Assembly: GCF_009711445.1 (NCBI RefSeq)
Contig: NZ_SMMC01000184.1
Coordinates: 611 to 32,799 of the forward strand
DNA from: Curvivirga aplysinae
GTDB lineage: Bacteria; Pseudomonadota; Alphaproteobacteria; UBA8366; Aestuariispiraceae
Direction of reading: 5' to 3'
Length of the DNA stretch: 32,189 bases
Below are positions 6,547 to 12,997 of this stretch, piece after piece. Every line of letters starts with the position of its first letter. Positions within the stretch are counted from its first letter, which is position 1. The position numbers were made by a program, and so were the translations under genes. The notes under the pieces are model-generated. The model saw only the letters and a list, made by a program, of their open reading frames with translations, ran no database searches and had not been told where the DNA came from.

Positions 6547-7464
6547 TTAAGATGCTTCAGCTGCGGCATCTTCCATAGCGAAGATGATGTCATATGCGAA
6601 GACTAACTGCTTATACACATCGGCCGGTGTACGATTGCTATCGACTTCAGGAGTTACGAGGGCGGTCTTATCACCCATTGCGATCTTGAGTGCGACAAGA
6701 TCTGCAATAATGGTTTTTAAAACAGCAATAGTATCATCGCTGGTTGCTTTTCCATCTTGTGGGTTTGGTACAACAATGCCGCCAGGAATATCTTTCTTAA
6801 GGTATTCGGTTTGATAATACTGAAGTTCTGCGGCCACAGATAGCGCATATAAATAATTATCATTTGGACGTTTATCTTTTTCGACTTCCGTATTTGGACG
6901 CGGTAGTAAGACTTTTTGATGCTTTGCGAGTTGTTTTACAATACTCAATAACATCGTTGCATATTGATAACTATCTCCTGGTTTTTGCCCCGGCAGGCCC
7001 AAGGATTTTAGTTGTTGTTCGATTTGTAAAAGGGCTATGTAGATTCCGTCTGTTGACCCGTCAACTGTCATAAGTTCATTAGATTGACCTTCTTTAATAT
7101 TATAAACCACATTTAGTTCATCTAGGCTCTTCATCTGAGCATTCAGGATATTTTCTATATCCGCCTCATTCCATGCTTTTAGCTCAAGCGGGGAGATGTC
7201 CATTATGGGTAAGCCATTGATAGTTCTTAATAGATTAATATGAGCAGAATTCGTTCTTGCCTGAACATAAACATGTCTCAAGCTGCGTGGTTGAACTTTA
7301 AACTCTGTACTTGCGAATTGTATGTAATCTGCTTGTTGTAATTGATTGATATGTGCAGAGATTTTAGATGTGAGTTGGGCAACGGAGTTAAGGTCCGCGG
7401 CCTGTGACATGGTAGATAGCCCACCAATACATAGAAGGCTGCCCGCAATAAGTAATTTTTTCAC
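6547..7464 (-). CDS. Exported protein of unknown function, paired with a chemoreceptor
   Basis: I do not recognise this 305-residue protein. It begins with a clear Sec signal peptide (MKKLLIAG, hydrophobic core, likely cleavage after SQA near residue 22) and has no further membrane segment or lipobox cysteine, so it should be periplasmic or secreted. The rest is predicted mostly helical, without cysteines in the mature part, and contains a Pro/Asn-rich middle (LLPRPNTEVEKDKRPNDNY). The start is GTG at 7464, with AGGAAA upstream. The next gene, 9 bases downstream on the same strand, is a chemoreceptor with a periplasmic helical sensor. A plausible but unproven role is a periplasmic partner or ligand-binding protein for that receptor. 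Confidence 0.8.
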   Translation of the reverse strand: MKKLLIAGSLLCIGGLSTMSQAADLNSVAQLTSKISAHINQLQQADYIQFASTEFKVQPRSLRHVYVQARTNSAHINLLRTINGLPIMDISPLELKAWNEADIENILNAQMKSLDELNVVYNIKEGQSNELMTVDGSTDGIYIALLQIEQQLKSLGLPGQKPGDSYQYATMLLSIVKQLAKHQKVLLPRPNTEVEKDKRPNDNYLYALSVAAELQYYQTEYLKKDIPGGIVVPNPQDGKATSDDTIAVLKTIIADLVALKIAMGDKTALVTPEVDSNRTPADVYKQLVFAYDIIFAMEDAAAEAS

Positions 7465-8337: not shown

Positions 8338-9027
8338 TTATGATACTTTAACTCTTCGACCCAAGCCATCATACATATCAAGCATCTTTTCGTACCATTC
8401 ATTCACACTATCATCATCTTTTAAAAATTTCTTGGTTGAAGAGGCACGCGCAAACATAAAACACCCCATCAGGATATAATCTGCGTAACCCGGTTCCTCA
8501 CCAGATATAAATGGTTGTGTAGAGAGCATCATTCTCACTGGGGTAAGATTATTGAACAGTATTTGAATCTGTTCATCATCATATTTCTGAAATTCTTCCA
8601 GTTTCCTAGCTATACGCTTTTCTCTTGTTTCACGGAAGTAATCTTTGTCTCCTTCATCTAATCCTTCAAAGATATCAAGTATAATCATTCGAAAAATTAC
8701 AGCCATAATCTGTGTGTTTGCCCACGATTCAATGAAGCGTGCTTGACCAATCGCAATATCGGAACCCATCAGTGTCGGTGCATTTGGATATGCATTGTCT
8801 AAATATTTTGCAATTTCAAAGCTATCGGATACTGAAATATCACCGTCATCGATAACAGGGACTGTAGGTGAGCCAGAATGTACTATCGCAGATTTCTCGG
8901 TAAAGCGGATGATGTGGGGTTCTGGCGTGATCCCTTTATGGGCAAGGGCATATTTTACCCGCCAGCAATAAGGGCTAAAGCGTCGATTGCTATCTGCACC
9001 CGCAAGTTCGTATAATTTCACAGACAT
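8338..9027 (-). CDS. Glutathione S-transferase family protein (LigE-like N-terminus)
   Basis: A 229-residue cytosolic GST-type protein. The N-terminal thioredoxin-like domain carries RFSPYCWRVKYALAHKGI, then the cis-proline segment SPTVPVIDDG and the DSFEIAKYLD block that binds the gamma-glutamyl part of glutathione. The C-terminal half is the usual all-helical domain, with a GEEPGYADYILMGCF segment. The SPYxWRxKYALxHKG pattern resembles LigE-type beta-etherases and their fungal relatives, but the protein is shorter than LigE (about 280 residues in Sphingobium) and the substrate cannot be read from sequence. The gene stands alone, with its promoter in the 244-bp divergent spacer before the unknown two-gene module. 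Family is firm; subfamily is moderate. Confidence 0.85.
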   Translation of the reverse strand: MSVKLYELAGADSNRRFSPYCWRVKYALAHKGITPEPHIIRFTEKSAIVHSGSPTVPVIDDGDISVSDSFEIAKYLDNAYPNAPTLMGSDIAIGQARFIESWANTQIMAVIFRMIILDIFEGLDEGDKDYFRETREKRIARKLEEFQKYDDEQIQILFNNLTPVRMMLSTQPFISGEEPGYADYILMGCFMFARASSTKKFLKDDDSVNEWYEKMLDMYDGLGRRVKVS

Positions 9028-9233
9028 TTTATGAATTCTCCTGAAATCCGATAATCTTTTAGTTTACGTTTAAATTTGATCTCACGGTAACGAAATGACT
9101 CAAATTTATCCAGTTCAAATTAACCCTTCGATGGCTATCTAATTTTTTATGGGAAAAAATGTTGATGGCTGTTGCCACCTAAGTGAAAATACTCGAATAT
9201 GCTAATAAATAAAAATTATGGCAGGAAATAATA

Positions 9234-9275
9234 ATGCATCGTAAAGGTGCTTCATTTTGGGATAAAAATCTATGA
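9234..9275 (+). CDS. Candidate 13-codon leader peptide overlapping the next start
   Basis: A short ORF, MHRKGASFWDKNL, starts at an ATG preceded by a good AGGA site seven bases upstream. Its TGA stop overlaps the ATG of the next gene (ATGA at 9272-9275). The downstream gene has only a weak ribosome site of its own, so translational coupling is plausible. The alternative is that a frameshift has separated a true N-terminus from the main frame, or that it is chance. Confidence 0.4.
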   Translation: MHRKGASFWDKNL

Positions 9276-10387
9276 ATAGTAAGTCAGGGATCGGTGGCAG
9301 TTTACCTGAAACCTTTGCTGAACGCGGATATTCCGTACCCTTTACAACATCTGTCTTGGAACATTTACGCGTTCGCGTAGGAAGAGAAGGGGGGCTGGAA
9401 GCGTTATTACCCGGGCTTTCCGGTGGCAAAGGAACCTATATTATCCCTTGGTCTGATTTACCCAGTGTGATCTCCATGAGCTTACATGATAGATCATTAT
9501 ATAAAAAGATGAATGAGCTGTCTTCGCATACACCTGATAAAATTCGCCAAGCTGCACTGGAAGTGCAACAAGATGGATATGATGGACCTGATGTAGCTGA
9601 AGCAGCCACTAATGCCATTCAAAAAGATCATGAAATTAGTTTGATGACCAATTTTACTTTGGTTTCAGAAGCTGTTCGACAAGTTGGTGACGGCGTGGAA
9701 TATACGCCCATGGATCTTATCAATGAAGAAAATATGAAGAAAGCACGTGCATCCGTTAAAAACTACGCTGATAAGTTGGGAATGTCGACGCAGGACATGA
9801 TGGATATTTTGACGACTTGGGCGGACACAAGTGCTGCTGTAGGATCACCAGGTGGGGATCACCCAGGATATTTGATGAGAACGGTATCTGATCTTGCGCG
9901 TATGAGCGCGGAAATGTCTGATTGGGCAGAGGAAGAGATGCCGGAAATAGTGGTTTTAGTGCAACAGATTATTGATGCAGCTGAGATGGCAGGAAGATTG
10001 GCCTATGAAGAGATTGAAGGTATGCAGCAGCAAGCTTCCTCCATGTCTACAGTTTTATCCAGTTGGAATATGAATTTGAGGCGCTTGCAAGATTCTGTTG
10101 CTAAAATCGCTAGTATTTTGGATGGCTGGGATCGCGTTACTCAGAAATGGGACCATGTGAAAGAGGGATTCAGACATCAACAACGTGATATGGTCGGTGA
10201 AGCTGTGCAGCATCTGCCGCTGTTACCCGCCGAAGTTTTGAACATGAATCAGCAAGTCATATGGCAGAAAATTACCTCAGAACAAAATCGCCTTCTGACC
10301 GAAAATGGGGCAGTGGATTTTGAAGATTATGACGAGGTCGAGGGTGATATTGAAGAGTTTATGCAGCCGCAATCTGCATGGACTTAA
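9272..10387 (+). CDS. Hypothetical helical protein, first gene of unknown pair
   Basis: I do not recognise this 371-residue protein. It has no signal peptide and no membrane segment, so it should be cytoplasmic. The N-terminus (about 1-70) looks globular, with an FTTSVLEHLRVRV segment, a Gly-rich LPGLSGGKGTY stretch and an IPWSDLPSVISMSLHDR segment. The rest is predicted largely helical, with a possible coiled coil around 230-290, and the C-terminus is acidic (FEDYDEVEGDIEEF). No catalytic motif is evident. The start at 9272 is set by an in-frame stop at 9263-9265 and overlaps the leader ORF stop. The second unknown gene follows after 73 bases on the same strand. Base composition looks like that of the neighbours, so no sign of recent transfer. 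Confidence 0.75.
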   Translation: MNSKSGIGGSLPETFAERGYSVPFTTSVLEHLRVRVGREGGLEALLPGLSGGKGTYIIPWSDLPSVISMSLHDRSLYKKMNELSSHTPDKIRQAALEVQQDGYDGPDVAEAATNAIQKDHEISLMTNFTLVSEAVRQVGDGVEYTPMDLINEENMKKARASVKNYADKLGMSTQDMMDILTTWADTSAAVGSPGGDHPGYLMRTVSDLARMSAEMSDWAEEEMPEIVVLVQQIIDAAEMAGRLAYEEIEGMQQQASSMSTVLSSWNMNLRRLQDSVAKIASILDGWDRVTQKWDHVKEGFRHQQRDMVGEAVQHLPLLPAEVLNMNQQVIWQKITSEQNRLLTENGAVDFEDYDEVEGDIEEFMQPQSAWT

Positions 10388-10460
10388 TTTATATCAATAC
10401 ATGGTATAAGTATTGCATTTATAATCTTATTAATCTTCAAGGTTTAGGGGTATGTGATTG

Positions 10461-11879
10461 ATGGAAATCGGTCAGGATAAAAAAGATGCGCTCAGAGCGT
10501 TTTTGTCTCAGTTAGGTGAAAGCCAGCTTGTCCTGCTTGTCTCCGCTATGGATTATGCACGTAGCCATGGAGCAGAAGATATACCCTACGAATTCATCTT
10601 GTCAGTCTTACGACCAACCCTTTTTAGAATTCGTCCCCCACGTAATGGTACGGCGCAGAGAATTCTATGTAACCCATTCGAAGATTTGTTGATACCGCGT
10701 GATCCGAAGGTAAAGAAAGAAACAATGATTGCCCGCGCCTCGCTGCAACCCGTGTGGGAATGGCTTCAAGCTGAAGGCGGTACAGCATTTCAAGAGATAT
10801 GTAATAAATGTGAAAAGGCATTAACGAAAGAGGACCTCGAAAAACGTTGGGAGGCTCAAGTTAATCTGTGGCAGGCAGCTGTTGAATTAATGCAAAAAGC
10901 GTTGCAAAAAGCAGATGAAAGTGCAGCTAATGCCAATGATCTGTTAAAGAAGCTTGGTGGTTCGACACGCCTAGAGGATATGGAAGAAATGAGCCACGTT
11001 CTTTCTGTGGCCCCAGAACTTGAAACGTTAAAAAAGAAGTTGCCAGTAAAACCAATTTCCAAGTTTTTGGATGGTCATATTACGTCCGTCAAAAATTGTT
11101 ACAATGATACCGCTGATAGTCAGCCGGGTGAAGAAAGCTGGATTATCGTAGCTGCGATGCGACGGTTACTTAAGCAAGCCGATATCCTGAAGGTTGTAAA
11201 AAGTATTAGCCCCGATGGTGATGATTCTATTGTGGCGATTAGTGATCTTGCCAAAGTCGGAGATGTTGTAATTGGTGATTTGGAAGAACTGGTTCAACAG
11301 ATTGATGCAATGGCATCTGAGGGCGGAACGGAAGAAACCTTGCTCGGCTTAATTAAGGAATATGTGAAAACTTTTGAAGCAATTACGATGAATCTAAATA
11401 TTCGTCGTGACGGGGCTTGGGGACAAAGGTTATTTACCACGAGAAAAGTTGTATCGGATGCTTTGACGCGTACAATTTTGGCCCAAGCGCCAGAAAAACT
11501 GAAAACAGCGTTGAAACAACGTAGTGTGAAAGCTGGGCGTACTAAGCGAACTATTAGTGACTTACGCGCGGATTTAGATCCAGAAGCATATCGCATGGCG
11601 CGAAGCGCTGCGCGTTCTATGAAAGAGAGCCTTCGCATAGCTGATAAAATCGGAATGATGAGTAATGCACGTTCTGTGGCGAATGGAATGGTTGATCAAT
11701 TAGAAAAGTTTTCAGATCAATTGTTAGAAGATATTCATACAGTACCAGCAGATTATAAAAAACGTGCACGTGATCATGTGATTATGATTGCCCATCTTAT
11801 GGAATTTCTTGTTGATTCGGAACAAGCGGACTTCTTTTTGCGGCGGGCGATGCGTCGAATTGATGAATCAGAAGGTTAG
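10461..11879 (+). CDS. Hypothetical helical protein, second gene of unknown pair
   Basis: An unrecognised 472-residue protein without signal peptide or membrane segments. The first 110 residues look like a globular domain (SQLVLLVSAMDYARSHG, TLFRIRPPRNGTAQRILC, NPFEDLLIPRD, SLQPVWEWLQ). The remainder is a series of amphipathic helices rich in Lys, Glu and Ala, including a basic KAGRTKRTISDLRADLD linker and ending in FFLRRAMRRIDE. I chose ATG 10461 over the adjacent TTG at 10458; AGGGGT lies about 9 bases upstream. With the gene before it, it forms a probable two-gene unit between the GST gene and fabD. No enzyme motif is visible; a structural, scaffold or regulatory role would fit, but this is speculation. 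Confidence 0.75.
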   Translation: MEIGQDKKDALRAFLSQLGESQLVLLVSAMDYARSHGAEDIPYEFILSVLRPTLFRIRPPRNGTAQRILCNPFEDLLIPRDPKVKKETMIARASLQPVWEWLQAEGGTAFQEICNKCEKALTKEDLEKRWEAQVNLWQAAVELMQKALQKADESAANANDLLKKLGGSTRLEDMEEMSHVLSVAPELETLKKKLPVKPISKFLDGHITSVKNCYNDTADSQPGEESWIIVAAMRRLLKQADILKVVKSISPDGDDSIVAISDLAKVGDVVIGDLEELVQQIDAMASEGGTEETLLGLIKEYVKTFEAITMNLNIRRDGAWGQRLFTTRKVVSDALTRTILAQAPEKLKTALKQRSVKAGRTKRTISDLRADLDPEAYRMARSAARSMKESLRIADKIGMMSNARSVANGMVDQLEKFSDQLLEDIHTVPADYKKRARDHVIMIAHLMEFLVDSEQADFFLRRAMRRIDESEG

Positions 11880-12055: not shown

Positions 12056-12997
12056 ATGACATCTGCATTTGTATTTCCCGGTCAGGGATCTCAAGCGGTC
12101 GGAATGGGTAAAGAGCTTGCAGACGCTTTCCCGGCAGCACGTGAAGTTTTCCAAGAAGTTGATGAGGCTTTGGAACAAAATCTTTCTCGTTTGATGTGGG
12201 AAGGCCCAGGAGAAGATCTAACTCTAACTGAAAATGCACAACCTGCATTGATGTCGGTAAGTCTCGCTGTTTTGCGGGTTTTGGAAAGTGAAAGTGGTAA
12301 ATCTCTTTCAGATATGTGTGCTTTGGTGGCAGGACATTCTTTGGGTGAATATTCTGCGTTAGCAGCTGCGCGTTCTTTAACAATCAGTGATGCCGCAAAA
12401 TTGTTGAAACTTCGTGGACAATCCATGCAAGAAGCAGTGCCTGTCGGTGAAGGTGCCATGGCAGCGGTCTTAGGTCTCGATCTGGACGCAGCAGAAGCGG
12501 TTGCTGCTGAAGCCGCACAAGGTGAAATATGCACTGCGGCAAATGATAATGCACCTGGCCAAGTAGTTCTCAGTGGTGCGAAAGCTGCGATTGAACGTGC
12601 TTTGGTTATTGCTAAGGAAAAAGGTGCAAAACGTGCTGTTCTACTACCTGTATCTGCACCTTTCCATTGTGCAATGATGCAACCTGCCGCAGACAAGATG
12701 GCGGAAGCATTGGCTTCTGCAGATATTCAAGCGCCTTCTGTGCCGTTAGTTGCAAATGTCGTTGCGGAAAAAATCATTGATCCGTCTCGTATCCGCGATT
12801 TGCTTGTGGAGCAGGTTTGTGGACGTGTCCGTTGGCGTGAATCTGTATCTTATATGAAAAATCAAGGCGTTGAGCAGTTGGTAGAAGTTGGAGCTGGTAA
12901 AGTTCTAAGTGGACTTGTTCGCCGTATTGAGCGTGATATGACAGGTGTGAATGTTGGAACACCTGCTGACGTTGAAGCATTTTTAAATAGTCTTTAA
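12056..12997 (+). CDS. fabD: Malonyl-CoA:ACP transacylase
   Basis: Moves the malonyl group from CoA to the phosphopantetheine arm of ACP, supplying the extender unit for type II fatty-acid synthesis. The 313-residue protein opens with the family pattern FVFPGQGSQAVGMG, carries the nucleophile in GHSLGEYSA (Ser95), and the catalytic histidine in VSAPFHCAMM (His205). The NDNAPGQVVLSG segment is also typical. AAGGA precedes the ATG. It is the first of a fabD-fabG-acpP set in one direction and lies 176 bases after the unknown pair, so it probably has its own promoter in that gap, though I could not assign one with confidence. Confidence 0.97.
   Translation: MTSAFVFPGQGSQAVGMGKELADAFPAAREVFQEVDEALEQNLSRLMWEGPGEDLTLTENAQPALMSVSLAVLRVLESESGKSLSDMCALVAGHSLGEYSALAAARSLTISDAAKLLKLRGQSMQEAVPVGEGAMAAVLGLDLDAAEAVAAEAAQGEICTAANDNAPGQVVLSGAKAAIERALVIAKEKGAKRAVLLPVSAPFHCAMMQPAADKMAEALASADIQAPSVPLVANVVAEKIIDPSRIRDLLVEQVCGRVRWRESVSYMKNQGVEQLVEVGAGKVLSGLVRRIERDMTGVNVGTPADVEAFLNSL

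Follow-up and report, generated by a model that had tools for sequence, protein, structure and literature searches.

The locus and its two genes

The DNA analysed here (the window) is a stretch of 32,189 nucleotides from Curvivirga aplysinae, in which two open reading frames lie between a GST gene (8338-9027, - strand) and fabD (12056-12997, + strand), both flanking genes scoring above their Pfam cut-offs. An earlier note, made from the sequence alone, had described them as same-direction ORFs of 371 and 472 residues, 73 bases apart, and these coordinates were confirmed. The genes are referred to as P1 and P2; the features of the locus are as follows.

9028..9271, no strand: GST-P1 intergenic region, 244 bases; putative promoter region of the pair
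9272..10387, + strand: P1 gene, 371 aa, ATG to TAA; a small N-terminal part (three short strands), then a helical body
9305..9448, + strand: conserved N-terminal motif of P1, residues 12-59; P12, R18, G19, R33, R35 and P59 invariant in 17 alignment rows
10121..10129, + strand: D-G-W motif of P1, residues 284-286; invariant in 16/16 alignment rows
10388..10460, + strand: P1-P2 gap, 73 bases; a stop-start overlap stands at this place in many other copies
10461..11879, + strand: P2 gene, 472 aa from ATG; helical almost throughout
10611..10736, + strand: conserved N-terminal motif region of P2, residues 51-92; R51, R67, C70, P72-F73-E74-D75 and R92 invariant in 24 rows

An alternative P2 start, a TTG three bases before the ATG at 10461, gives a protein of 473 residues. 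Codon use had been called normal for this window, and it is: the mean log-odds are 0.123 (P1) and 0.151 (P2), within the range of 0.049-0.260 for 20 other window genes (leave-one-out), and the other five reading frames of both genes are all negative. P1 and P2 are two real codirectional genes. No CtrA site was found upstream of P1 in 9028..9271. Elsewhere in the window, a 305-residue ORF (6547-7464, - strand) with no Pfam match at E 1e-5 adjoins a chemotaxis-receptor gene.

Features and predicted folds of the proteins

Neither protein possesses a hydrophobic stretch, the maximum 19-residue Kyte-Doolittle mean being 1.26 for P1 and 1.30 for P2, in agreement with the earlier statement that membrane segments are absent. 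AlphaFold2 models, built on alignments from which short or chimaeric rows were excluded, reached a mean pLDDT of 88.2 and a pTM of 0.87 for P1 (16 rows), and 88.8 and 0.77 for P2 (24 rows). The P1 model begins with three short strands and continues in helices, roughly the globular N-terminus and helical remainder that had been proposed for both proteins; P2 is modelled as helical almost throughout. Both are probably cytoplasmic, mostly helical proteins, and hhalign reveals no homology between them (probability 0.8%).

Foldseek, one of the checks that the note had named, gave no match in the PDB at E <= 0.001 for either model, and at the same threshold no viral relative of P2 was found by fold; a family missing from the structure matches listed proves nothing. 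The best VIA-align result for P2 has a Z of 8.7, rmsd 5.9 and 184 aligned residues, a middling Z as is usual for helical proteins. The best alignments, which cover P2 residues from about 225 to 472, are to helical solenoid or stacked-helix scaffolds (Exo70 and the cullin N-terminus), but their scores (Z up to 8.7) fall within the range of unrelated helical proteins. For P1 the best alignment is to unrelated membrane receptors (Z 7.7, rmsd 3.5, 110 aligned); BAR/F-BAR-like bundles give Z 5.1-5.8 (rmsd 3.3-4.6, 107-119 aligned), not above unrelated rows.

Search for known families

Profile searches, also proposed in the note, revealed no strong match. With Pfam nothing came near cut-off for the window P1 and P2, 16 P1 relatives, 24 P2 relatives or N-terminal fragments of both, and the same was true of NCBIfam for the two window proteins. 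A PhaR-type polyhydroxyalkanoate synthase subunit (TIGR02132) was rejected at 13.6 bits and E 0.046, where 148.4 bits are required, as was a kinetochore (Dad2) match far under its cut-off. Searched by sequence against solved structures, P1 has its best match at E 0.0028 (a translation factor, 19.8 bits) and P2 at E 0.08, both taken as chance; a PRC-barrel, whose sole match was 8onw at E 1.7, was likewise set aside.

The short N-terminal strands of P1 were presumed, by eye, to resemble a PilZ domain. This candidate was rejected: hhalign of 76 P1 rows against five same-genome PilZ domains gave a probability of 0.05% and E 0.82, whereas the PilZ-versus-PilZ positive control gave E 6e-5, and the Pfam scans contain no PilZ match to P1 either. 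No HATPase_c, HisKA or receiver domain was matched by Pfam in any of the 16 P1 or 24 P2 proteins, and the P2 profile matches DesK at chance level (E 0.08-0.17).

PADLOC returned 0 matches for six proteins at E 0.1, PHROGs yielded weak matches only, all of them to unnamed families (E 0.003-0.03), and no P1 was found in phage records; a defence or phage origin is unsupported by these searches. A search of titles and abstract openings, with most subscription journals outside its scope, found no publication on P1 or P2. The two families are new, that is, without a match among Pfam, NCBIfam, PADLOC, PHROGs and solved structures compared by sequence or fold, as the note's failure to recognise a family had suggested.

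Occurrence across genomes

The search of 59 close genomes detected P1 in 14 and P2 in 17. Within the window's own family, Aestuariispiraceae, whose named relatives are Hwanghaeella and Aestuariispira, both proteins are present in all 14 genomes sampled (window genome included), often in several copies. Even sampling of the class (385 genomes) gave P1 in at least 37, P2 in at least 61 and both in at least 33, and the phylum samples (299 genomes) yielded at least 16 P2 and at least 3 P1 matches, every one within Alphaproteobacteria; the class and phylum counts are lower bounds, since the first 4-6 candidates per genome were scored. The neighbourhood analysis across alphaproteobacteria that had been recommended finds the pair as a pair in relatives, both in the family and in the class sample. 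The conserved pair envisaged in the note is real; its description as lineage-specific is not upheld, the pair reaching many families of the class.

Plasmid records with P1 number 17 (16 from Azospirillum and one from Indioceanicola), and those with P2 number 12, Azospirillum throughout; where a gene is annotated on them it is a "hypothetical protein", and mostly none is listed there. Up to four P1-P2 pairs occur in one genome. Curvivirga aplysinae itself carries a further P1 and P2 on a different contig; they have diverged from the window copies (26% and 29% identity), and their genes overlap. 3′ of this second pair stands an ORF (L004, 2844-3617) whose product, by eye, resembles a pentapeptide-repeat protein. 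In another genome (G271; L187, 4354-9556) two pairs lie in direct tandem. A record titled Mesoflavibacter sp. (CP051228.1, L115) contains an Aestuariispiraceae pair at nearly the coordinates of genome G011, and its label looks wrong.

Genomic neighbourhood of the pair

The main copy in Aestuariispiraceae is found close to MeaB and GNAT genes, a place conserved across the family. The window copy belongs to a second type, distinct from this one; its closest P2 relatives are the two copies in genome G004, one of which (L057) is also near fabD and a GST gene. A lone, diverged P1 stands beside fabD in genomes G009 and G011. The position at the edge of a fatty-acid and envelope cluster, to which the note had drawn attention, thus holds locally, in the window and G004 and for these lone P1 genes; the remaining family copies lie away from fabD, and those of other lineages have other neighbours. 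As the neighbours vary between copies and lineages, the pair is self-contained, and its function cannot be read from the genes around it.

Regulation by CtrA was considered and rejected. A full or GTTAAC-form site upstream of P1 was present in none of 21 family copies and a half-site in one, which leaves the cell-cycle role that the note had offered unsupported.

P1 and P2 as a unit

In G+C-rich loci, longest-ORF calling placed genes on the wrong strand, an error that an improved caller repeated at some of them; P1 and P2 positions were for this reason taken from profile searches. In the pairing counts, second pieces of matches split by BLAST or HMMER were merged or dropped by hand. Of 65 P1 places in the class sample, 39 have P2 after them and 3 have it before them, no more than 600 bp away and on the same strand. 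The other 23 have no adjoining P2 by count, at least one of them (G387, L175) being actually adjacent. Of the P2 places, 42/82 are paired, and 28 of the 61 genomes with P2 have no detected P1. Neither protein therefore strictly requires the other.

Among 49 pairs, P1 ends in a TGA with an overlapping ATG or GTG in 31. This figure sets a ceiling on true stop-start overlap, because some P2 may start further on; the window copy has the 73-base gap instead. All ten comparisons of close relatives gave dN/dS values of 0.03-0.36 for P1 and P2, which indicates purifying selection on both proteins. Trees of 50 pairs, chosen by hand and with identical contigs retrieved twice excluded, have their main clades in common, and their distances correlate with r 0.72; when paralogues were re-paired within genomes, 9 of 768 pairings (the true one included) fitted as well. 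In genome G409, a single draft in which the arrangement is unconfirmed, P1 and P2 form one uninterrupted reading frame of 849 codons, joined by an Ala/Pro/Lys-rich segment; its relative G129 has them as two genes. Conservation as a unit, shared clades, purifying selection, stop-start overlap and the G409 fusion together make a physical P1-P2 complex very likely.

Solo P2 and neighbouring histidine kinases

In a tree of 28 solo P2 proteins (without P1) and 33 paired ones, chosen by hand, the two groups fall on opposite sides of one branch with a support of 98. Where a solo locus extends at least about 4 kb upstream, the same response regulator and kinase occur within a few kb in 13 of 14 cases (L073, L074, L075, L116, L118, L121-L124, L129, L178, L180 and L181; the exception is L179). 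The best NCBIfam matches of these neighbours are PmrA/PhoP and PhoQ, below curated cut-offs. They resemble PhoP/PhoQ-like two-component systems (OmpR-class regulator and HAMP kinase) and often point in the same direction as P2, whereas P1 and P2 themselves match no kinase or regulator family.

Kinases of the DivJ/PleC/PdhS type also neighbour some P1 genes. One lies directly 3′ of the pair in L125, with best matches to PdhS and DivJ below curated cut-offs, and a related kinase signal takes the same position in L126-L127 and also adjoins the lone P1 in L064 and L065; the likeness is one of gene neighbourhood alone, these kinases being unrelated in sequence to P1 and P2. The lone P1 of these last two loci (L064, 6563-7780; L065, 6582-7772) is strongly diverged, has a PAS histidine kinase on one side and fabD on the other, and points away from fabD. 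Within 5-7 kb, most paired loci lack a kinase of this kind. A tie of the pair to kinase signalling is possible but weak, because the kinase linked to solo P2 lacks a clear orthologue in the window genome (best 28% over the kinase part).

Interpretation

The best reading of the whole, to which we give a probability of roughly 0.4, is that P1 and P2 are two subunits of one stable cytoplasmic complex, encoded by a two-gene operon and acting as a non-enzymatic scaffold or adaptor. Its parts differ in strength. That P1 and P2 bind each other is strongly suggested by conservation as a unit, congruent trees, helical predicted folds and the fusion. In such a complex the long helical body of P2 would be the binding surface, on which P1 may dock or which it may gate. 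Granted the complex, a scaffold or adaptor role is a reasonable expectation, since the folds are helical and have no recognisable active site. The most speculative step is the client, which might be a histidine-kinase pathway; it is proposed because solo P2 is tied to a PhoP/PhoQ-like pair and some P1/P2 loci have a DivJ/PdhS-like kinase next door, and as a guess from gene neighbourhood we hold it to be improbable.

A rival reading, in the sense of the scaffold or cell-cycle/envelope factor offered in the note, is a structural or spatial organiser: a cytoskeletal, envelope or cell-cycle factor and not a signalling adaptor. Both proteins are indeed helical and motif-poor, the pair lies near fabD in the window and G004, as does the lone P1 in G009 and G011, and in Azospirillum an AsmA-family gene is positioned divergently, upstream of the pair. 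Against this, the neighbours differ between copies and lineages, the 21 upstream regions offer a single CtrA half-site, and no fold match points to such a protein, so that we regard an organiser as rather unlikely.

The 24 P2 rows share invariant charged residues and a single cysteine, which raises the thought that P1, P2 or both are enzymes of an unrecognised fold, with C70, P72-F73-E74-D75 and R67/R92 of P2 as a putative active site; yet a core or an interface would just as readily account for an invariant motif at the N-terminal edge, and with no family or fold match an enzyme seems distinctly unlikely. A defence or stress system, or another accessory module with multiple copies and large plasmids as carriers, would suit the several diverged copies per genome and the presence on Azospirillum replicons, but it is highly improbable given no PADLOC match, weak and unnamed PHROG matches, no phage record with P1, purifying selection, and a main copy held family-wide in a constant MeaB and GNAT setting.

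The history of the pair may have run as follows, although we consider this scenario doubtful. An ancient alphaproteobacterial signalling scaffold, solo P2, would serve a conserved PhoP/PhoQ-like envelope kinase, and P1-P2 would be its duplicated, paired form: in the Rhodospirillales and their kin, P2 would have gained P1 as a dedicated partner, left the kinase and spread as several paralogous complexes per cell.

What is claimed as new is the protein families, not a mechanism. Two families that have confidently predicted folds and lack a named relative have been kept as a unit across many alphaproteobacteria, Azospirillum included, and represent a widespread, unnamed putative complex ready for testing in cultivated strains. 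Solo P2 with its kinase neighbour provides a concrete first hypothesis on function.

Additional genes at related loci

A third small, unnamed gene (about 122-124 aa) is found 3′ of P1-P2 in Azospirillum (L161, 11428-11796; L162, 11438-11812; L166, 11435-11809; L168, 8435-8809). This gene (124 aa) and the AsmA-family gene were rejected as fixed partners of the pair, being confined to Azospirillum among the loci compared, except that the third gene is partly present in L144. At another locus (L070, 9240-13514) a protein of 1425 aa is encoded convergently to the pair, with apolipoprotein-like and coiled-coil matches below cut-off, and long proteins related to it occupy the corresponding place in L066, L069 and L071.
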